Assembly (NCBI RefSeq): GCF_000262465.1
Contig: NZ_CM001489.1
Location: forward strand, 2,875,735-2,939,734
Source: Frankia sp. QA3
GTDB lineage: Bacteria; Actinomycetota; Actinomycetes; Frankiales; Frankiaceae
Direction of reading: 5' to 3'
DNA: 64,000 bases
How positions within the stretch are numbered: position 1 is the stretch's first letter; every line of letters begins with the position of its first letter. A program made the translations under genes and the position numbers. A model generated the notes under the pieces. The model was not told where the DNA came from. It saw nothing but the letters and a program-made list of their open reading frames with translations, and made no database searches. This document shows, in pieces, positions 48,520 to 61,199 of the stretch.

Positions 48520-48540
48520 TCCCGCCCGACCACGCCCACC

Positions 48541-48557
48541 GGCCCCGTCTGGGGGCC
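48541..48557. terminator. Possible bidirectional terminator
   Basis: Stem GGCCCC/GGGGCC with a 5-base loop, between the convergent LLM and LuxR genes. There is no T-run, as is common at high G+C. Confidence 0.35.
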
Positions 48558-48573
48558 TGTGGCGCGGGGTGTG

Positions 48574-49338
48574 TCAGGGCGTGATGATCCCCAGATGCGC
48601 GGCTTTGGCGACGGCGCTCGTGACGTTCACCGTGCCGAGCTTCACGTTGCACGCCGCCAGTTCCCTTTTGATGATCGTCCGACTTACCCGCAGGGATCGG
48701 GCGACCGCCTCCTGCGTCTGACCGGTCCCGAGCCGGCGGAGAATGTCCACCTGCCGCTCGGTGAGCCCGTCGCCACCATGATGCGCCAGCCTCCTGTGCG
48801 CGCTCACCAGCAGCGGCTGCAGCGCGGCGGCGACGGCCCGGTCCCGCTCGCTGAAGTCGGTCCCCGCCTCCCTGTTGATCGCGTACGCGTCCGCGCGCTG
48901 GACGCCGACGTCGGGGAACAGGGGGATCGTGAGCTGATGGACCGCGTCGATCGGCACGAAGATCTCCTGGTAGGCGGGGCTTTCCCGCCATCGAACCGGA
49001 GTCACGTGGTCACTGACCATCGTCGGCAGGAAGTCCGCCGCAGTGTCGAAGTAGTAGCAGGCGGTGGGATGCAGGTGGAGATACGCGCTCACCCGCTCGT
49101 TCAGATCGTCGATCGAAGGCTCCTCCGGCCAGTACCGGACAATGGAGCGGAACCCGGGTAGCGCAATCTCGTTGAGACCGACGAGATTTCCTCCGATCAG
49201 CCTCCCGAGCGCTTCCATGATGGTTTGGCGTAGCTGCCGGACAGTCGTGACGTCGTTCAGCTGGTGAGCAAGATCCATGATTTTTCGGAGATCGGCTCTG
49301 GTCAGCTCGGCCCTGGTGGTTGCATGGACGTCGTTCAT
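48574..49338 (-). CDS. LuxR-family regulator with GAF-like sensor
   Basis: A 254-residue regulator. The N-terminal part (about 15-165) resembles a GAF-type sensor (DVTTVRQLRQTIMEALGRLIGG; FDTAADFLPTMVSDHV), and the C-terminal helix-turn-helix is LuxR-like (LTERQVDILRRLGTGQTQEAVARSLRVSR, about 185-250). The ATG at 49338 has GGGAG nine bases upstream; the frame is open for 22 more codons. It is convergent with the LLM/ABC operon and could control it, though it does not share a promoter with it. Ligand unknown. Confidence 0.83.
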   Translation of the reverse strand: MNDVHATTRAELTRADLRKIMDLAHQLNDVTTVRQLRQTIMEALGRLIGGNLVGLNEIALPGFRSIVRYWPEEPSIDDLNERVSAYLHLHPTACYYFDTAADFLPTMVSDHVTPVRWRESPAYQEIFVPIDAVHQLTIPLFPDVGVQRADAYAINREAGTDFSERDRAVAAALQPLLVSAHRRLAHHGGDGLTERQVDILRRLGTGQTQEAVARSLRVSRTIIKRELAACNVKLGTVNVTSAVAKAAHLGIITP

Positions 49339-49676
49339 GGTGAAGGTGCTCCCCCGAGGGTTCCCAAAAGGACACTTGCGGTCGTGCTCGCAGGTCTTGA
49401 CCATGGTGGCATGCCCGCCATCCCGACCCTCCTGGATGACTGCGACGCGACAGGCGGGGCAACTGGGTAGAACTCCTACTTGACATCGAGTGCCGGCTCA
49501 CGAAAGCGGCGGCCGGCGCCGACCTTGACCGAGATCCGGCCACGTCGCCGCCGCGCAGGCGGGCTGGATTCGCGACGGCGCGCGCCGGGGGGCGTGCCGT
49601 CACACGGCGACCCTCCGGCGGCCGACCCGGCGATGTCAGCAGAAAGACCGCGCGGAACGAGCGAAAGCGAGGAGAG
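49339..49676. other. Divergent intergenic region, 338 bp
   Basis: No gene recognised. Should contain promoters for the LuxR gene (leftward) and the small secreted protein (rightward). Confidence 0.5.
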
Positions 49677-50180
49677 ATGACCGTTGGCATCGGCGCACGG
49701 GGGATCCGGAGAGTGCTCTACCCCGTGGGACTGCTGGCTGCGATCGTCGCAGCCGTCCTGGCGGGGGCCGGACCGTCGATGGCCGCCCAGAGCAGCGACA
49801 CGCGCCTGACCTTCTACAGCGGCTACAACGGCTACGGGAACATCGTGTGCTCGATTTACCTGTCGCCTTCCACCACCCTGCAGGATGTCAATTTCAAGAC
49901 CGACCCGTATGGCTGCGAGAACGACGACACGAAGTCCGTCCGCTTCGTCAGCAGCGCCGTCGACTACCGGGGTGTGCAGCTCACCGTCTTCAACGACTCG
50001 TCCTGCCGCACCACCTCCGACTACGCGGTGACCCGGATTCAGCCGCTCAACAGATCGGCGCGGGTGAACAGTTTCGAGCAGAACTTCGTCGCCGGCTCGA
50101 TAACCCACACCTATCACTACCGGAGCGGCGATCTCGACGGCAAGGTCTCCTGCATCAGATTCCAGCGGCTGCCGGTCTGA
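49677..50180 (+). CDS. Small secreted protein of unknown family
   Basis: A 167-residue protein with a clear Sec signal peptide: basic start (GIRRVLYP), hydrophobic core (GLLAAIVAAVLAGAG) and likely cleavage after PSMA-A near residue 36. The mature part is about 130 residues, rich in Tyr, Ser, Thr and Asn, with four Cys (IVCSIY, YGCEND, SSCRTT, VSCIRF), which could form two disulfides. The segment LTFYSGYNGYGNIVCSIY hints at a beta-rich fold such as a beta/gamma-crystallin-like or inhibitor-type domain, but this is a guess. GAGGAG lies very close to the ATG. Followed by a strong palindrome. Confidence 0.7.
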   Translation: MTVGIGARGIRRVLYPVGLLAAIVAAVLAGAGPSMAAQSSDTRLTFYSGYNGYGNIVCSIYLSPSTTLQDVNFKTDPYGCENDDTKSVRFVSSAVDYRGVQLTVFNDSSCRTTSDYAVTRIQPLNRSARVNSFEQNFVAGSITHTYHYRSGDLDGKVSCIRFQRLPV

Positions 50181-50197
50181 TCCGGTTCTGAAGGCAT

Positions 50198-50235
50198 GAC
50201 GCGGGCCGGCCGGGAGCTCCCGGCCGGCCCGCGTC
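50198..50235. terminator. 38-bp perfect palindrome, likely terminator
   Basis: GACGCGGGCCGGCCGGGAG and its exact complement meet at GAGCTC without a loop. It lies 17 bp after the secreted-protein stop and 27 bp before the methyltransferase start. A very stable hairpin without a T-run. Confidence 0.6.
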
Positions 50236-50262
50236 CACCGTGGTCGCCCTAGGCTCAGCTGC

Positions 50263-51060
50263 GTGACCAGCTCAGACCGCGAACGGCTGCGAGCCACCTT
50301 CACCGAGGACGCCGAGCTCTACGACCGGGCGCGGCCGGGATATCCACCCCGGATGTTCGACGATCTCGCCGCGATGGTCGGGCTCGGAGCGGGGTGCCGC
50401 GTGCTGGAGATCGGCTGCGGAACCGGCCAGGCCACGGTGCCGCTCGCGCGGCGCGGATGCCGGATCGTGGCGGTGGAGCTGGGCCCGGAGATGGCCGCGG
50501 TGGCCCGCCGCAATCTCGCCGGTCACCGGGACGTGCAGGTCCTCAACGCCGTGTTCGAGGACTGGCCGCTGCCGCCGGAGCCGTTCGACGTGGTGTTCGC
50601 CGCGACCGCGTTCCACTGGATCGACCCGGCCGTGCGGGTCGAGAAGTCGGCGGCGGCGCTGCGTCCCGGTGGTGCCCTGGCCACCATCGCGACCCACCAT
50701 GTCGCCGGTGGCACCGAGCGCTTCTTCGCCGACGTTCAGGGCTGCTATGAGCGATTCGACCCGCAGACCCCGCCGAATCTGCGGCTGCAGCCCGCCGACG
50801 AGATCGCCGAGGACAGCGAGGAAATCGCTTGGTCCAGCCGCTTCGACGAGGCGACCTTCTTCCGGTACGAGTGGGAGTTGCCCTACACGAGCGCCGAGTA
50901 CCTCGACGTCCTGCGCACCTACTCCGGACACCGCGCCCTGGCGCCCCCCGCCCGACACGGTCTTCTCCGCTGCATCGAGAACCTGATCGAACACAACTAC
51001 GGGGGCGCCATCACCAAGCGCTACCTCACCGAGCTGCGCGTGGCGTGCCGCAGGAAGTGA
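50263..51060 (+). CDS. Class I SAM-dependent methyltransferase
   Basis: A 265-residue methyltransferase of the Methyltransf_11 type. The SAM-binding motif I is VLEIGCGTGQ near residue 48, the acidic ribose ligand follows in VAVELGPEM, and the motif IV region is FDVVFAATAFHWID. The C-terminal part (YTSAEYLDVLRTYSGHRAL) is typical of a group annotated only as small-molecule methyltransferases. GTG start, no strong ribosome site. Preceded by a strong palindrome, so probably transcribed separately from the secreted protein. Substrate unknown. Confidence 0.87.
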   Translation: MTSSDRERLRATFTEDAELYDRARPGYPPRMFDDLAAMVGLGAGCRVLEIGCGTGQATVPLARRGCRIVAVELGPEMAAVARRNLAGHRDVQVLNAVFEDWPLPPEPFDVVFAATAFHWIDPAVRVEKSAAALRPGGALATIATHHVAGGTERFFADVQGCYERFDPQTPPNLRLQPADEIAEDSEEIAWSSRFDEATFFRYEWELPYTSAEYLDVLRTYSGHRALAPPARHGLLRCIENLIEHNYGGAITKRYLTELRVACRRK

Positions 51061-54460: not shown

Positions 54461-54492
54461 GCCGACGGGCCGACGGGCCGACGGGAGGGCCG

Positions 54493-55686
54493 TCAGGGGG
54501 CGGCGGACAGTAGGTCGAGGCGGCCGAGCAGGTGCAGGGCCTTCGTCCGCCGGGCGTGTTCGCGCAGGTCCTCGAGGCTCGGCGCGGCCACGTCCAGGGC
54601 GCGGGCGACGGGTTCGGCGCGGCGGCGCAGGTCGCCGACGGTGGTGACGTCGGATAGCTGGGTCATCCTCAGCGCCCGCTCGTGGACGGCGGTGCGGCGC
54701 GCCGCCGCATCGTCGCACCACAGCTGAGCGATGTGGTGGTCCCACAGTTCGAACGAGCCGAGCCGGGAGTATGCCAGCTTCCCCTCGCCGCCGAAGCTGC
54801 TCGCCGGCAGGACGATCCGCCACATGCCGGCGGAGGTCTGTCGCAGCGTTCCCGGGCCGTGGGGTGACCGGGCGAGCCAACCGGTCCAGATCTCCCGTGG
54901 GTCGCCCGCCTGCTCCGCTTCGATGAGCATCCTGGCCGAGTCGATCTCACGGCACACCTCGGCGAGAAACCCGTCGCGCTGCTCCGAGACGCCGCTGTAG
55001 GCGAGCAGCCCGTGCCCGGCCGTCTGGATGAGGTAGCACGGCAGGTAGCCCTCGCTGACTGCCAGCACCTGGATCTGGCCGAGCGCCGCCGGCACGTTGA
55101 ATTCGGCGCGGTCGGGACGGGCCGCGAGGGCGGTCACGGCGTCGGGGCGCAGCGGTGTCGCGTCGAACAGCGCGCGGAAGCGGGTCCGGCCGGGCGTGCG
55201 GTCCTCGGGCACCTTCGACGTCGGCAGGACGGTGAGGTTCCCGTCGTAGTAGGCCCGGGGAAGCGGCCGGCCGGTGAAGCGTTCGAACAGCAGGGTCTGG
55301 CGGCTTTCCTTCGGCACGTAGCGGACTCCGGCACGCCATGAGCTAAGGCCAAGCTCGGTCAGCGCCACCCGCCCCCCGCCGTCGCCGTCGCCGTCCTGGA
55401 TGGTGAGATGCCCGATCGTCGCCAGGAAGCCCAGGCAGCGGCGGACCAGCGCGGCGGACAGCGAGAAGAACCGGGCGAGGTCGTCGACGCTGTCGAGACG
55501 CCCCTCGGCGACGGCGCGGACCAGGAAGTGGTCGAGCACCTCGTAGGCCTGGGGGTCGTGCACGGACGCGCTGATCTCGGTCCGCCACAGCGGCCAGAGC
55601 ACCGGGAACAGCCGCAGCGGCCGTACACCGGGGATCGTCGCTGCATCCTCAATCGCACGTCGAGGCAGGTAGAGGACTGGTTTCAC
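54493..55686 (-). CDS. Helicase-operon protein with winged-helix-like N-domain, unknown family
   Basis: A 397-residue protein I cannot assign. An N-terminal region (about 40-110; DPQAYEVLDHFLVRAVAEGRLDSVDDLARFF, then SAALVRRCLGFLATIGHLTI) has the shape of a winged helix-turn-helix with its recognition helix and wing. Next comes a conserved-looking segment (WRAGVRYVPKESRQTLLFERFTGRPLPRAYY) and a mixed alpha/beta C-terminal half. No nuclease or ATPase motif is visible. The GTG start overlaps the helicase stop by 4 bp (GTGA). It is the last gene of the three-gene operon, perhaps its target-recognition or regulatory subunit. Confidence 0.75.
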   Translation of the reverse strand: MKPVLYLPRRAIEDAATIPGVRPLRLFPVLWPLWRTEISASVHDPQAYEVLDHFLVRAVAEGRLDSVDDLARFFSLSAALVRRCLGFLATIGHLTIQDGDGDGGGRVALTELGLSSWRAGVRYVPKESRQTLLFERFTGRPLPRAYYDGNLTVLPTSKVPEDRTPGRTRFRALFDATPLRPDAVTALAARPDRAEFNVPAALGQIQVLAVSEGYLPCYLIQTAGHGLLAYSGVSEQRDGFLAEVCREIDSARMLIEAEQAGDPREIWTGWLARSPHGPGTLRQTSAGMWRIVLPASSFGGEGKLAYSRLGSFELWDHHIAQLWCDDAAARRTAVHERALRMTQLSDVTTVGDLRRRAEPVARALDVAAPSLEDLREHARRTKALHLLGRLDLLSAAP

Positions 55687-58664
55687 GGCCCGCTCCGCAG
55701 CTGTCGCTCGAGGTCGATCGACGCCCGCAGGTCGCCGTCGCTTCGCAGGTAGTCGGTCAGGCCGCGGGCCATCTCGGCGAAGGCCTCGTCGCCGGCCGAG
55801 CGCAACGTCGCGGTGTCGCCGACCAGAACGAGCTGACGTTTCGCCCGGGTGATCGCCACGTTGAGCCGACGCAGCTCCTTGAGGAACCCGACGGCACCCC
55901 TCCCGTTGCTCCGGGTGAACCCGTAGACGATCAGTTCCCGTTCACCGCCCTGGAAGGAATCGACAGTGCCGACGTTCTCGGCCACCCGGGCTGGGTCGCC
56001 GAGCTCGCGGCCCAGGGCTGCCTCAATCCGTCTTGCCTGGGCCCGGTAGGGAACGATCACCGCCCAGTCCCGATACGTGCCGGCCAGCCGGGCGACGACG
56101 GCGGCGATCAGCTCCACCTCCAGCTCGTTGACATAACCGCGCTGCTGCCACGGTTCGGTCGCGTGCAGCGGCCGCTCGGCCCGCTCGGCCTCCGGCCGGT
56201 CCGAGGTGTCCACCATCGCGAACGGGCTGCGAAAGACGGGATCCCCGCCGCCGCCGGGATGCTCCGTGCGCAGCCGTCCCTGGTAGAAGGCCCGGGAAAC
56301 GAAGCGCGCCAGTTCTTCGGGCATGCGACGTTGCAGGGTCAGTTCGATCCGGTGGTCCTCGCCGATCCGGGGAAACAGGTGCTCGAAGCCGCTCGCCCGC
56401 AGCAGCTCACCGATCTCCTGGGCTTCGGCCGGCGGTAGCTCGTTGCCCTTCACCAGCTGCTCGGACCAGTGCCGGACGTCGTCGTCGAGAAACGGCGGCA
56501 GCTGGTAGTGGTCGCCGACGAGGACCGACCGGCGGGCCCGCACCATCGGCACCAGCAGGTTCGGCGTGGAGATCTGCCCGGCCTCGTCGATGATCGCGAG
56601 GTCGAACACGATATCGGTCAGCAGCTGGCTGCTGGCCGTCCCGACGCAGGTCGCGGCCACGACGTCCGCATAACGCACGAGCTCGTGGCGTAGCTCCGAC
56701 TCCGCGTCGCCGATCCGCGACCGCCATTCTGTCAACAGCGCACCACGACTGCGCAACGTCTCGACCGCCATCGTCGCCCACGTGTGGAAGCGGTCCCAAT
56801 CGGCCATCGCGTCGCCGTCCGGGCCTGGACCGCTGTCGGGCACGGGCAGCAACGGGCGCAGCGCGCTCGTGATGACTTGGGCGGCCTGGACGACGGCGCC
56901 CATCGCCTCGGCAGCGGCCGTCGCAAGCCGGTCGCGCTCCGCGATGAGCCCTTGGCAGTGCGGGTCGTTCGCCGCCACGGCAGCCGCCTGCGCACGCAGG
57001 TCGTCGACCGTCGCCGCCGCCCTTGCCAGCTCCGCCTGCGCCGCGGCCCGCCGGGCCAGGGTCGTCTCGAATCGGCGCCGTAGCCGGGTCAGCCGCCATC
57101 GCCGCCACCACTGCAGGGCGCCGGCGGTATCCGCGGCGGCCTCCCGCGCCGGAAGCTCGGCGTAGGCAGCGGCGAGCGACTCGTCCAACCGGACGCACGT
57201 CGCCTGCCGCCTGCCATGGTCGTCGTCGGCGTGGCGACGGGCGGTGACCAGCTCCGGGGAGAGCGCCTCGACGGCCAGGTCGAGGGACTCGCCGACCACC
57301 CGCGCCTGCGCCTGCGCCTCGGCGGCGGTCGAGCGTCGGTCGGCCAGATAGTCCAGCCACCGCTCGAGCGTGGGACGGTCACCTTCGAAGGCAGCCAGCC
57401 GATCGAGCAGGGCGGTGTCCGCGAGGATGTCCCGGCGGACGCCCTCGATCTGGCTGTCGACGGTGCGGGCGCGGGCGGCGCTGGTCATCGAGCTCTCGCT
57501 GCCGACCCGGACGACACCGACGTCCGACGGCAGGTTCTCCAGCACGTTGTCGACCGCCCGGTTCGTGTGCGACGAGACCAGAACCTTCTGGCCGCGTTCC
57601 ACGCAGGCCAGCACGATCTCGGTGATCGTCGTCGTCTTGCCGGTGCCGGGGGGTCCGAGGACGAGGAGCAGGTCGGGTACGGCCAGCGCGCGGGAGAACG
57701 CCGCGATCTGGTTGCCCTTCAGGGGGCCGCGCGGGCGCGCCACCGGATCCGGCTGGTAAGGAAGAACGACGCCGTCGACGAGGTTCGCCAGCAGTGCCGG
57801 GTTCGCCGCCTCGCCACGGGCGAGGGTGTCCGCCGCGGCCTGCTGGATCCGGTAGATCCGATCGCTGGGCAGTACCCGCAGTTCTCCCTGCGGTGGTATC
57901 CGGTTGAAGTCCACCGCCTGGTCGAACCGGACCACGACTTCGCGGCCGTTCACCCGCTCGACCCGGCCCCGCAGCTCGGGTTGGTCGGCGATGTGCACGA
58001 GCGCGGAGGCCGCCACCTCGCCCGGCCGGGCGAGGTGGAAGGCGTACACCCCGCGGCCGGAGAAACGCTGCTCCCGGGTCGCCTCGCGGCGCGCGTAGGG
58101 CAGCGGCGGGGCCGACTCCTGCTTGGCGACCTCGATATCCCGGCTGGCGTCGATGATCCGGCCGACCAGGTCGAGGTAACGCTGGTGGTGGGGCGCGACG
58201 GTCGATTCCGGCGGCTGCGGCTCGGCCAGCGCCGACAACGCCGCCCAAGCCTGGCTCAGCTCGACCCACTGGGTGGACCATCGTCGCTGCGAGTAGCGGT
58301 CGCCCCGTGGTAGGTCACGAAGATCGTGGAAGGCGTGCCAGCCGGCCGGGCAGTGCAGGAGCATCGCGGCGGTGGTCAACCGGTCCTCGTCCCGGAAGGT
58401 CCGCCGGCCGACGTGCCCCAGCCGGTATCCGTCCATCATCTTGGTCGGGTAGAGCGAGGCGACATGGCGGCGGGCGTAGACCACCAGCTTCCCGCGGGCC
58501 GGATCCCGCCGGTCTGGCTCGATCCGGGCAGGCAGCGCTCCGCGGCCGGACAGTTCGGCGAACTCGCCGATCAGCAGGTCGGGCCGACCGTCGAGCTGTT
58601 CGACGGCGCGCTGGGCGGGGATGACGGCGAGCGGCCCAGGCAGGGTGATTGGCTGGCTCGTCAT
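55683..58664 (-). CDS. SF1 helicase (Dna2/NAM7-type)
   Basis: A 993-residue superfamily 1 helicase of the AAA_11/AAA_12 type. Walker A is GPPGTGKTTT near residue 340, motif Ia VSSHTNRAVDN, motif II IIDEAGQ, motif III VGDHYQLPP, and motifs V-VI GTVDSFQGGERE and RLNVAITRAKRQL. An insert of about 200 helical residues (coiled-coil-like, Ala/Arg-rich) lies between motifs Ia and II. The N-terminal 300 residues are specific to this group and include an OB-like stretch (RVERVNGREVVVRFDQ). It should unwind or translocate on DNA or RNA. ATG at 58664 overlaps the upstream stop (ATGA); the frame is open much further but without family sequence. Confidence 0.9.
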   Translation of the reverse strand: MTSQPITLPGPLAVIPAQRAVEQLDGRPDLLIGEFAELSGRGALPARIEPDRRDPARGKLVVYARRHVASLYPTKMMDGYRLGHVGRRTFRDEDRLTTAAMLLHCPAGWHAFHDLRDLPRGDRYSQRRWSTQWVELSQAWAALSALAEPQPPESTVAPHHQRYLDLVGRIIDASRDIEVAKQESAPPLPYARREATREQRFSGRGVYAFHLARPGEVAASALVHIADQPELRGRVERVNGREVVVRFDQAVDFNRIPPQGELRVLPSDRIYRIQQAAADTLARGEAANPALLANLVDGVVLPYQPDPVARPRGPLKGNQIAAFSRALAVPDLLLVLGPPGTGKTTTITEIVLACVERGQKVLVSSHTNRAVDNVLENLPSDVGVVRVGSESSMTSAARARTVDSQIEGVRRDILADTALLDRLAAFEGDRPTLERWLDYLADRRSTAAEAQAQARVVGESLDLAVEALSPELVTARRHADDDHGRRQATCVRLDESLAAAYAELPAREAAADTAGALQWWRRWRLTRLRRRFETTLARRAAAQAELARAAATVDDLRAQAAAVAANDPHCQGLIAERDRLATAAAEAMGAVVQAAQVITSALRPLLPVPDSGPGPDGDAMADWDRFHTWATMAVETLRSRGALLTEWRSRIGDAESELRHELVRYADVVAATCVGTASSQLLTDIVFDLAIIDEAGQISTPNLLVPMVRARRSVLVGDHYQLPPFLDDDVRHWSEQLVKGNELPPAEAQEIGELLRASGFEHLFPRIGEDHRIELTLQRRMPEELARFVSRAFYQGRLRTEHPGGGGDPVFRSPFAMVDTSDRPEAERAERPLHATEPWQQRGYVNELEVELIAAVVARLAGTYRDWAVIVPYRAQARRIEAALGRELGDPARVAENVGTVDSFQGGERELIVYGFTRSNGRGAVGFLKELRRLNVAITRAKRQLVLVGDTATLRSAGDEAFAEMARGLTDYLRSDGDLRASIDLERQLRSGP

Positions 58665-60241
58665 GGCTGTCCGCCCAGCGAGAGCTGCCGGCGGGCGGCC
58701 CGCAGGCCGGCACCGAGCGCCCCGATGACGGGCCGGCGCGCCGGGTCGGGGTCCAAGGCCACCGCCAGCAGCTCGTCGAGCTGGGCCGGATAGCCGGGCA
58801 GCATTCCCTCCAGTCCCGGCTGCGGCGGGGGTGGCAAGGTGCCAGCAGATGCCGGGCTGGGTGGGCGCCCGCCGAGTGCGTCCAGGACGAGCGCGGCGAC
58901 CTGGTAGACGTCGGTGCCTGGTCCGGGGCGACCACGCCGTGGCTCGCCGCCCTGGTGACGCCGCTGCTCGGGTGCGGAGAAGGGACCGCCCTCGCCGGCA
59001 AGCTCGGTCATCCCGGCCAGCCCCAGGTCGCAGGGAACCACCGCGGCCCGAGCCCGGCCCGGGCTGGTGAGCACGATGTTGTCCGGGCTCAACGACCGGT
59101 GCGCGTGCCCGTGCCGGTGCAGGGCTCCCAACGTCCGGCACAGATCCGCGGCCGCGGCGAACACGGCCGCCGTGGCCAGCCGATCCGGATGGCCACGAGA
59201 CGGGGCGCGGTCATGGCGCTGACCGAGCGGGCCGTGCTCACCGCGCCTCCCGCGCTGACCGCCGAGCGCGTCTGTCTGCCCGCCGTGGACGTCCCGCCAC
59301 GTCCGTCCGGCCGGCGCCGACATCACCAGCAGAGCCTGGCCGGCGCGCTCGGGTTCGTCACCGTCGGCACTGTCGAGGCCGTGGCGGACCAGCAGGCGGG
59401 GCAGGCCGGCCGCGCCGGCAAGCTCGACGAGCAGATCCGCCTGTGTTCGCAGCCCGGCCCACCGATTCCGGGCATCGGGCGTCGCGCGGCTGATCTGGAG
59501 CTGGCGCAGGCGGACCACCCGCGCCCGCGGCTCCAGCTCACGCGCGGCGGCGTCGCGCAGCACCCACGATCGGTCCGGGCCGACGCTCTCCACGATCGGG
59601 TCGTGCAGCAGATAGTGGGTGTTACCGGCCCTCAGCTCCGCCCCGCCGCGCCAGGTGCCGGCATCTGGGTCGGCGAGGTCGAGGACGTCGTCGTCGGGCC
59701 GGATGCGCAAACGCGCCAGGGAGGGGCGCGTCGGCGTCTCGGCATACGGGTCGTAATAGGCCCGCCTGATGCCCGCGGTTTCCGGCTGCATCAGCAGGTT
59801 GCGCAGCGGGGTCTCGTCACACAGGACGATGTCGACGCCGGTCAGGTGCTGCTGCTTGACTTTCCATCGTTCCCAGCTCTGACCCGTCGGGCCGTCCAGG
59901 CTCACCGGGACGCACAGCGTCCACTTCTCGATCCGGTAACCGTTCTCCGCCGCCGCTTGACAGGCACGGGTAAACGACTTCCTGACATTACTCATCTGGC
60001 CGGGGCCGACGCCGTCGATGAAGTACTTCACCTGCCAGATCTGCACCCGGCCGGTCAGATCGCCGACGAACACATCGATGCCCCAGTCGCCCGGGGCCGC
60101 TTGGACGACATGGGCTGGCCCGTACAGCGTGTCCACGAGCGACGCGACCATCTGCTCGAACTCATGCCGGCCCCCCTCGGCATAGGCACGGACGCGATGC
60201 ACCTGAAAATTGATAGGTGGTACCCCGGCCGGATCATTCAT
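58661..60241 (-). CDS. Mrr-like nuclease fused to a pseudokinase
   Basis: A 526-residue two-part protein. Residues about 20-180 look like an Mrr-type PD-(D/E)xK nuclease: Glu29 (HEFEQMV), Asp56 (GDWGIDVF) and Gln70-Val-Lys72 (IWQVKYF) are in the right order. Residues about 200-510 have a protein-kinase fold: catalytic loop HRSLSPDN near 381, DLG near 405 and APE near 424. The catalytic Asp of HRD is Ser and the ATP-binding Lys strand reads VVRLRQL, so it is probably a pseudokinase or ATP sensor. It heads the operon with the helicase and resembles PglW-type nuclease-kinase fusions in general layout. Role inferred: sensing and cutting invading DNA. Confidence 0.78.
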   Translation of the reverse strand: MNDPAGVPPINFQVHRVRAYAEGGRHEFEQMVASLVDTLYGPAHVVQAAPGDWGIDVFVGDLTGRVQIWQVKYFIDGVGPGQMSNVRKSFTRACQAAAENGYRIEKWTLCVPVSLDGPTGQSWERWKVKQQHLTGVDIVLCDETPLRNLLMQPETAGIRRAYYDPYAETPTRPSLARLRIRPDDDVLDLADPDAGTWRGGAELRAGNTHYLLHDPIVESVGPDRSWVLRDAAARELEPRARVVRLRQLQISRATPDARNRWAGLRTQADLLVELAGAAGLPRLLVRHGLDSADGDEPERAGQALLVMSAPAGRTWRDVHGGQTDALGGQRGRRGEHGPLGQRHDRAPSRGHPDRLATAAVFAAAADLCRTLGALHRHGHAHRSLSPDNIVLTSPGRARAAVVPCDLGLAGMTELAGEGGPFSAPEQRRHQGGEPRRGRPGPGTDVYQVAALVLDALGGRPPSPASAGTLPPPPQPGLEGMLPGYPAQLDELLAVALDPDPARRPVIGALGAGLRAARRQLSLGGQP

Positions 60242-60474
60242 TCACTGCGCCCCCGCTGGTTCGCCAACCCCTGGAGCCGGTTGATCGCAGGACCGACCAA
60301 CGACCACCGGTGAGCATATAGCACTTACTTTACGTTAGTTCACAGCCTTCCCTGACTTCGGCCCGTCAACGAAATCGCCTGGTCCGAGCGTTCCGCGCCA
60401 GCTCGGAACGACGACACTGCTGCCAGTCCCGCGTGTGGGGAATGCGGGGTGTGCCGGCGGTGGTTGGCGCCGTC

Positions 60475-61173
60475 ATGGCGACTCTCGGACTGATCGGCAG
60501 TGGCAACATCGGTGGGACGCTGGCGCGCCTGGCCATCCCGGCCGGGTACGACGTGGTCCTGAGCAACTCGCGCGGCCCGGACACGCTGCGGGACCTCGTG
60601 GCCGAGCTCGGGCCGCGTGCCCGCGCCGCCACCGCCACGCAGGCCGCGGCGGCCGGCGACGTCGTGGTCGTGACCGTGCCGCTGCGGGCCTACCGGGACG
60701 TTCCCGTCGAGCCGCTCGCCGGCAAGGTGGTCATCGACACGAACAACTACTACCCGGACCGGGACGGCACCATCGCCGCGTTGGACGACGAGTCCACCAC
60801 CACCAGCGAACTGCTCGCCGAGCACCTGCCGACCTCGAAGGTGGTCAAGGCGTTCAACAACATCTACTACCGGCATCTGCAGTCGCTCGCCCGGCCCGCC
60901 GGTGCGCCCGACCGCTCGGCGCTGCCGATCGCCGGCGACGACGCGGACGCCAGGGCGACGGCCGCGGCCTTCCTCGACGCGCTCGGATACGACGCCGTCG
61001 ACGCCGGCCCGCTGGCCGAGGGATGGCGCTTCCAGCGTGATACCCCGGTCTACGTCACCCCCTACTTCGGGCCCGACGGCGGCGTGCACGGCGACGGCGG
61101 CCAGGTGGACGCGGCCGCCGTGCGGGCCGCGCTGGCCGCCGCCCGCCGCTACGCGGACATCGCCCGCGGCTGA
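60475..61173 (+). CDS. F420-dependent NADP oxidoreductase family protein
   Basis: A 232-residue dinucleotide-binding protein with motif LGLIGSGNIGGTLARLA at the start, VVLSNSRGPDTL, VVVTVPLRAYRDV and VIDTNNYYPDRDG, as in NADPH:F420 oxidoreductase-like proteins. Some members reduce F420; others act on unrelated substrates, so the name reflects the family only. The ATG at 60475 starts exactly at the Rossmann fold; earlier starts are possible but add unlikely sequence. It is divergent from the defence-like operon with a gap of about 230 bp that includes an A+T-rich stretch (60310-60345) fit for promoters. Confidence 0.82.
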   Translation: MATLGLIGSGNIGGTLARLAIPAGYDVVLSNSRGPDTLRDLVAELGPRARAATATQAAAAGDVVVVTVPLRAYRDVPVEPLAGKVVIDTNNYYPDRDGTIAALDDESTTTSELLAEHLPTSKVVKAFNNIYYRHLQSLARPAGAPDRSALPIAGDDADARATAAAFLDALGYDAVDAGPLAEGWRFQRDTPVYVTPYFGPDGGVHGDGGQVDAAAVRAALAAARRYADIARG

Positions 61174-61174
61174 G

Positions 61175-61195
61175 CCCGGCACCCGCCGCGCCGGG
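61175..61195. terminator. Hairpin between convergent genes
   Basis: CCCGGC-N9-GCCGGG directly after the reductase stop and before the end of the leftward gene at 61200. Likely a shared terminator. Confidence 0.4.
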
Positions 61196-61199
61196 TGGC

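Follow-up and report, generated by a model that had tools for sequence, protein, structure and literature searches.

Mokosh systems are the closest described relatives of the operon considered here. Mokosh type I combines a superfamily 1 (SF1) helicase and a kinase-fold domain with a second protein, MkoB; in type II, helicase and PLD domain are joined in a single protein, MkoC. The relevant passage of one review gives type I a NERD (nuclease-related) domain together with a PLD-like domain (PMC10952713), and a statement in another has Mokosh degrading viral transcripts (PMC11291487). Those sections of the literature that deal with Mokosh say little about how it works. Here, we discuss a three-gene operon of Frankia sp. 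QA3 that occupies positions 54493 to 60241, on the minus strand, of a 64,000-nucleotide stretch (NCBI RefSeq assembly GCF_000262465.1, contig NZ_CM001489.1, positions 2,875,735 to 2,939,734); we refer to this whole stretch as the window and use its numbering. From sequence comparisons, we regard the operon, with a probability of roughly two-thirds, as a three-gene immune module that descended from, or shares an ancestor with, Mokosh type I, and that carries swappable effectors on a pseudokinase.

The operon resembles Mokosh type I in its SF1 helicase, its kinase-fold domain and its likeness to the N-terminus of MkoB, as well as in having the helicase gene immediately ahead of the gene for the MkoB-like protein; degenerate kinases, too, are found in some fused MkoA proteins. 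There are several ways in which it differs. First, the kinase is here encoded by a separate gene (29/29 loci) and is predicted to be dead in 28/28, whereas kinase and helicase are fused in the comparison loci L037, L112, L113, L117, L121, L122 and L118–L120 (L and G numbers are our labels for loci and genomes). Second, gene 3 lacks the PLD region and has a C-terminal region of its own. Third, an exchangeable effector precedes the kinase. The operon also differs from type II in that none of the three window proteins matches a PLD model of Pfam.

Other described systems share single features with the operon. The nuclease domain of gene 1 matches LmuA of Lamassu (1.6e-37), but no match to the SMC-like LmuB was found in the three proteins or in eight neighboring open reading frames (ORFs), and the nuclease sits here on a pseudokinase beside a helicase. 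TIR, nucleoside phosphorylase, HNH and PD-(D/E)xK effectors also occur in CBASS, Avs and further systems whose effectors are exchangeable; however, the three proteins have no cyclase, SAVED or STAND match beyond generic P-loop hits, their core consisting of helicase, pseudokinase and MkoB-N-like protein. The account by Kaur et al. (2020, PMC7159879) of NTP-dependent conflict systems in multicellular bacteria includes kinase domains with disrupted catalytic residues that are thought to be non-enzymatic. Those systems are likewise actinobacterial and have variable effectors, but the passages on them describe vWA-MoxR- or GTPase-centered layouts and none of the Mokosh type. The nearest mechanistic model is Hachiman (HamAB), in which a helicase is described as the sensor that holds a nuclease effector in check; it differs in having two proteins, and its description, as far as it bears on this point, names no kinase or MkoB-like part. 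We found no description of the present arrangement in the literature on Mokosh and related terms, a scope that leaves aside preprints and newer DefenseFinder models.

The three genes are co-directional and each overlaps the next by 4 bp, with the stop/start motif ATGA at 58661..58664 (genes 1/2) and GTGA at 55683..55686 (genes 2/3), both read in the sequence and checked by script. We compared 30 loci in which gene 3 is complete or nearly so (in G142 it is split in two): the window, another copy elsewhere in its genome (3689016–3693235, helicase 47% identical), and 12, 5 and 11 further loci from the class, a second family and a third family, respectively. A helicase gene lies directly upstream of gene 3 in 30/30 loci, although it is split over two frames in G072 and G1123 and truncated by the end of the contig in G785. 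In all 29 loci with a contig that reaches far enough, gene 1 lies upstream of the helicase gene. This arrangement (effector/kinase, helicase, gene 3) is found again in relatives with as little as ~30% identity and is not due to chance. Among 26 loci examined (G331, G072, G785 and G1123 being excluded), a 4-bp overlap joins genes 1 and 2 in 8 loci and genes 2 and 3 in 20; where there is none, a possible start codon mostly lies within ~16 bp of the preceding stop codon. The original prediction, made from the window sequence alone, had described the overlaps correctly, and the three genes stay together in all 30 loci. It had also stated that the set does not match a named system. That claim fails, as the PADLOC MkoA and MkoB models relate each of the three proteins to Mokosh, and a profile-profile comparison does so for gene 3.

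Gene 1: effectors and pseudokinase

Gene 1 (58661..60241, minus strand; 526 residues) encodes a PD-(D/E)xK (LmuA/Mrr-like) nuclease fused to a pseudokinase. The nuclease, which would be the effector, comprises residues ~1–170 (59732..60241, minus strand), of which residues 6–170 match the LmuA nuclease model of PADLOC at 1.6e-37. Judging from the fold class, E29, D56 and Q70-x-K72 would be its catalytic residues; these positions (motifs E, GxD and QxK) are kept in 12/12 aligned members, and the motifs are also present in four further nuclease loci.

Across the 29 loci with a visible gene 1 (G785, locus L056, is left out, its contig stopping inside the helicase gene), the kinase part is common to all and the N-terminal part varies. 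By far the most common N-terminus is the LmuA-like nuclease, with 16/29 loci, the window included. The LmuA model was scanned in four of these 16, with matches from 1.6e-37 (the window) to 1.7e-47; the other three range from 5.6e-43 to 1.7e-47. A nucleoside phosphorylase takes the same position in five loci (PNP_UDP_1, 2.7e-26 to 6.2e-34 in the four scanned; the fifth, L059, was assigned because it is nearly identical to L058). Three loci have an HNH domain, matching the PADLOC SAVED_HNH model at 1.2e-17 to 1.6e-20 and the best Pfam HNH-type model of each locus at 7.3e-5, 1.1e-4 and 1.2e-6, and one has a TIR domain (TIR_2, 6.8e-31). Two loci have a BTAD domain, fused to gene 1 in one and encoded by a separate gene directly upstream in the other. 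These two, L159 (8617–9972) and L160 (7625–9964), are sister loci, such that the same part stands before the pseudokinase as a gene in one and as a domain in its sister. Several of the matched PADLOC models bear the names “Effector” or SAVED_HNH/SAVED_TIR; models of these names represent parts of CBASS. By these domain matches, the effector in front of the pseudokinase is exchanged between loci among unrelated folds.

A helicase tree was built from 27 members and five fused MkoA. (The tree excludes G072 and G1123, with the helicase in two frames, as well as G785, L111, L113, L115 and L118–L120.) The TIR locus is sister to the nuclease subclade that includes the window (100/99), inside the nuclease group (90/90), and therefore the nuclease label requires two changes on the tree. 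The HNH, phosphorylase and BTAD loci, together with the two loci that have no assigned N-terminal domain, make up the other half (91/93).

The C-terminal part of gene 1 (58664..59689, minus strand) is a pseudokinase domain, as identified by model matches and alignment: the β3 Lys is replaced by Arg and the HRD Asp by Ser, with the DFG Asp kept in the form DLG. Residues ~353–521 match kinase-bearing PADLOC models (best 2.5e-9; kinase part of MkoA 6.5e-8), and the Pfam Pkinase match is weak (0.028, under the Pfam cut-off). Among 28 aligned members (excluding G785, and also G331, whose gene 1 is split between two frames), the β3 Lys is lost in all (Arg in 27, His in one), as is the HRD Asp (Ala in 18, Arg in 4, Leu in 2, and Ser, Cys, His or Met in the rest). 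The DFG Asp is kept in 28/28, and the window protein is the sole keeper of the catalytic-loop Asn. Seven comparison kinases, six of them from fused MkoA and one from a separate kinase gene at an Azospirillum locus, keep all four residues. These substitutions suggest a non-enzymatic role for the pseudokinase. Judged from the alignment, what marks the clade is the combination of complete decay in the 28 aligned members, a retained DFG Asp and an effector mounted on the pseudokinase.

The helicase, gene 3 and other relatives of Mokosh

Gene 2 (55683..58664, minus strand) encodes an SF1 helicase of the IGHMBP2/COG1112 type, with 993 residues counted from the ATG (the mechanically called ORF has 1152). 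It matches the IGHMBP2 family at 1.6e-69, its solved relatives are SMUBP-2, DNA2 and NAM7/UPF1, and GPPGTGKTT and DEAG are found in its translation. Its best PADLOC model is MkoA (PDLC03920, 2.1e-111), in the helicase half only (profile positions 529–1098 of 1112); a match to MkoC (4.6e-34) is likewise strongest in the helicase part (827–953 of 1136).

Gene 3 (54493..55686, minus strand; 397 residues) encodes an MkoB-N-like protein with its own C-terminal region. It has no match in Pfam or NCBIfam. Residues 29–166 (55189..55602, minus strand) are homologous to the N-terminus of Mokosh MkoB by the MkoB model (4.9e-14) and by profile-profile comparison: a profile of 15 gene-3 proteins matches a profile of six MkoB proteins with 96.9% probability (E 1.6e-10), over 132 N-terminal columns only. 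The HxKx4D motif of PLD is missing from the window protein; it was found in 0/15 gene-3 proteins and again in 0/10 further ones (the gene-3 slice of L160, cut out of frame, is left out of this count, and G142, with gene 3 in two pieces, of the alignments). Among comparison MkoB proteins, 5/9 have the strict motif. A PLD profile built from four MkoB proteins matched none of 3192 ORFs from 18 loci plus part of the window, and none of 1463 ORFs from 11 more loci. A degenerate PLD in the C-terminus of gene 3, suggested by a “GSF” seen by eye near its end, was rejected, given that the alignment spans N-terminal columns only and that there is no HKD motif. On these searches, the effector (PLD) region of MkoB is missing where the kinase gene carries an effector. 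For the individual proteins, the original prediction fared well: the LmuA and kinase-model matches support its Mrr-like/PD-(D/E)xK nuclease fused to a kinase fold (the kinase being degenerate), the family match and the DNA2 and NAM7/UPF1 relatives support its Dna2/NAM7-type helicase of 993 residues, and its winged-helix third protein finds support in an N-terminus that is winged-helix-like by relation to MkoB.

Several loci found along the way vary the Mokosh layout in other ways. In L115 (3592–10083) and L116 (1929–8258), from G123 and G073, the kinase has a gene of its own and retains the catalytic Asp (YQD); the other two genes encode a helicase and an MkoB-N-like protein. In L115, the last of these (2.7e-15) ends in a C-terminal RNNATH that, by eye, resembles the HEPN RNase motif; PLD may have been replaced by HEPN in this layout. 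L111 (2247–10699), an unannotated locus on plasmid AZO_p1 of Azospirillum lipoferum 4B, has five genes in a row: a large kinase-like gene without the HRD Asp, a small kinase with an intact HRD, a Mokosh-type helicase, an MkoB-N-like protein of 419 residues (9.2e-8) and a CorA-like protein (3.8e-7). In an earlier tree of 17 members, L111 was their nearest neighbor, on long branches that may mislead. L118 (6066–13144), L119 (from 4918) and L120 (4308–11347), from G174, G243 and G231, have strong MkoA and MkoB matches and a fused kinase without the HRD Asp, representing a second and perhaps independent decay of the Mokosh kinase. In L113 (4592–10237; Aminobacter sp. plasmid pANY103d), a Mokosh pair whose MkoB lacks HxKx4D is directly followed by a PP2C phosphatase gene, which suggests reversible phosphorylation in some Mokosh systems. 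Lastly, MkoB has an S1 RNA-binding-like tail C-terminal of PLD in L112 (8017–9786, by annotation) and L122 (7654–9438, by alignment).

The rival that survives best is that the operon is an ordinary, diverged Mokosh type I with kinase and helicase on separate genes, which works like Mokosh. All three proteins are indeed homologous to Mokosh parts, the kinase is degenerate in some fused MkoA as well, and the pairing of NERD with a PLD-like domain in type I, as given in that passage of PMC10952713, is a precedent for a second nuclease. However, gene 3 aligns to the N-terminus of MkoB only and the loci have no PLD profile match, the effector is exchanged among unrelated folds, and a 100/100 branch of the helicase tree sets the members apart from fused MkoA as a separate clade. 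We consider ordinary Mokosh function unlikely.

Distribution and genomic setting

The distribution of gene 3 is patchy. With a single-protein query, it was found in 15/393 genomes of the class and 12/35 of its own family (13/35 with a profile), and other families yielded 12/297 (second), 18/279 (third) and 1/22 (fourth), the last a weak match that is the standard Mokosh locus L037; there is overlap among these samples, and matches that are weak or partial are counted as well. A profile search of the phylum sample gave 4/396, namely the own genome and three weak, short fragments (3e-4 to 7e-4), which we judge to be chance matches or unrelated winged helices. There was no match on plasmids at E 1e-5, and no relative in viral contigs with the patterns used. 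An MkoB family search matched 124/246 genomes, largely via the PLD half in other proteins, and is no measure of Mokosh. A helicase scan of genome contigs gave one distant relative, which was not used. In the own genome, a short ORF at 5101986–5102192 (L038) matches the helicase over its first 75 residues only (54%) and may be what is left of a third copy.

In two close relatives, G038 and G162, the stretch from ~54479 to 61196, which comprises the operon and an NADP-binding gene (60433–61173), is absent between collinear flanks. The flanks are 85–94% identical, and the counterparts of window positions 54472/54478 and 61197/61198 are separated by only 54 and 17 bp; therefore, ~6.7 kb is absent there. 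Such absence at a collinear site is the pattern of an accessory cassette. In a third relative, G242, parts of both flanks and the NADP-binding gene are present, with other DNA in place of the operon; the stretch from G207 ends too soon to show its presence or absence. Boundaries of a mobile element were considered and rejected, as a comparison of 300 bases from each end yielded no exact repeat longer than 10 bases and no integrase was found among the eight neighboring ORFs scanned. Five of these eight have ordinary Pfam matches (a methyltransferase, a PNPOx, two NAD(P)-binding enzymes and a weak Lsr2) and three have none. The methyltransferase, at 50263–51060, is of the Methyltransf_25/11 type and not a DNA methylase by those models. 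Near the operon, window positions ~48520–50254 form a second stretch without a counterpart between collinear flanks in G038 and G162.

The original prediction had left open whether the operon is a stand-alone defense module or a stress module. The first part is favored, and an actinobacterial module for physiological stress or nucleic-acid quality, with no anti-phage role, strikes us as improbable. It would fit the eight neighbors, none of which is a defense gene, the BTAD regulator domain in two members, and the negative plasmid and viral-contig searches. Against it stand the patchy distribution, the cassette-free site in close relatives, the two diverged copies in one genome, and the swapping, at one position, of effector kinds known from CBASS, Avs and Lamassu. 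A fragment of a BREX locus, leaving a PglW-like nuclease-kinase fusion and a large helicase, deserves hardly any credence and was rejected: weak PglW matches of the kinase part do occur in some members, but PglW is never the best match in them, helicase and gene 3 match Mokosh models, and, as the original prediction had stated, no BREX partner such as PglZ is found by Pfam among the eight neighboring window ORFs, to which the scan was confined.

A candidate adaptor for interchangeable effectors

Several observations count against reading the operon as an immune module with a dedicated pseudokinase. Neither the HRD Asp nor the DFG motif is present in the fused MkoA of L118–L120, which are the best PADLOC MkoA matches of those scanned (1.2e-249 or better). 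An intact kinase is thus found in only 6/9 MkoA compared, and the contrast “active in Mokosh, dead here” is limited to those six. The MkoB proteins of the same three loci lack the strict HxKx4D motif, as does that of L113, with L118 and L120 still matching the PLD profile. Separate kinase genes also occur in other Mokosh relatives (L111, L115 and L116); the HRD Asp is lacking in the large kinase of L111 and present in the separate ones of L115 and L116. Of the N-terminal parts, BTAD, fused or adjacent in two members, is a regulator part and not a known toxin, and two members have no assigned N-terminal domain (the N-terminus of L162 is unassigned, and that of L161 is short and domain-free). 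Eight further genomes (G016, G276, G767, G1095, G1147, G1173, G1243 and G1247) hold only gene-3 fragments, and no full partner set was recognized in the seven of them that were fetched (all but G1095). The absence of defense genes among the eight neighbors belongs here too, and we know of no phage assay for any member. On the alignments, kinase decay has occurred elsewhere among Mokosh relatives and is not unique to this clade; intact kinase residues are perhaps not a defining feature of Mokosh type I.

If the operon is an immune module, it could work as follows. The helicase and the gene-3 protein would sense phage or plasmid nucleic acid, and the pseudokinase, perhaps still binding nucleotide or metal via its kept DFG Asp, would serve as a scaffold or switch that couples this sensor to the effector. 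Upon detection, the effector would be released or clustered, and would then destroy phage and/or host DNA, in the case of the window DNase, or NAD+ or nucleotides in other members. Protection would probably be abortive.

A more specific proposal is that the operon represents a distinct actinobacterial immune system. The kinase fold would no longer act as an enzyme and would serve solely as an adaptor, through which a Mokosh-type helicase sensor is fitted with one of several interchangeable killing domains (a DNase, an HNH nuclease, a TIR of the NADase type or a nucleoside phosphorylase); MkoB would have lost its PLD region as the effector was transferred to the kinase. We hold this tentatively, at a little below even odds, because kinase decay is also found in some standard Mokosh loci.

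Three features that bear on these questions lie beyond the reach of the window by itself: the exchangeable effectors, the uniform loss of kinase residues and the missing PLD region of MkoB. That four known kinds of effector stand in for the nuclease of the helicase/MkoB-like core speaks for a core that acts as a sensor and can work through more than one effector, and for the kinase fold as the part that couples the two. Considered alongside the degenerate kinases of some fused MkoA, these pseudokinases suggest that phosphorylation may not be the role of the kinase fold in these systems.

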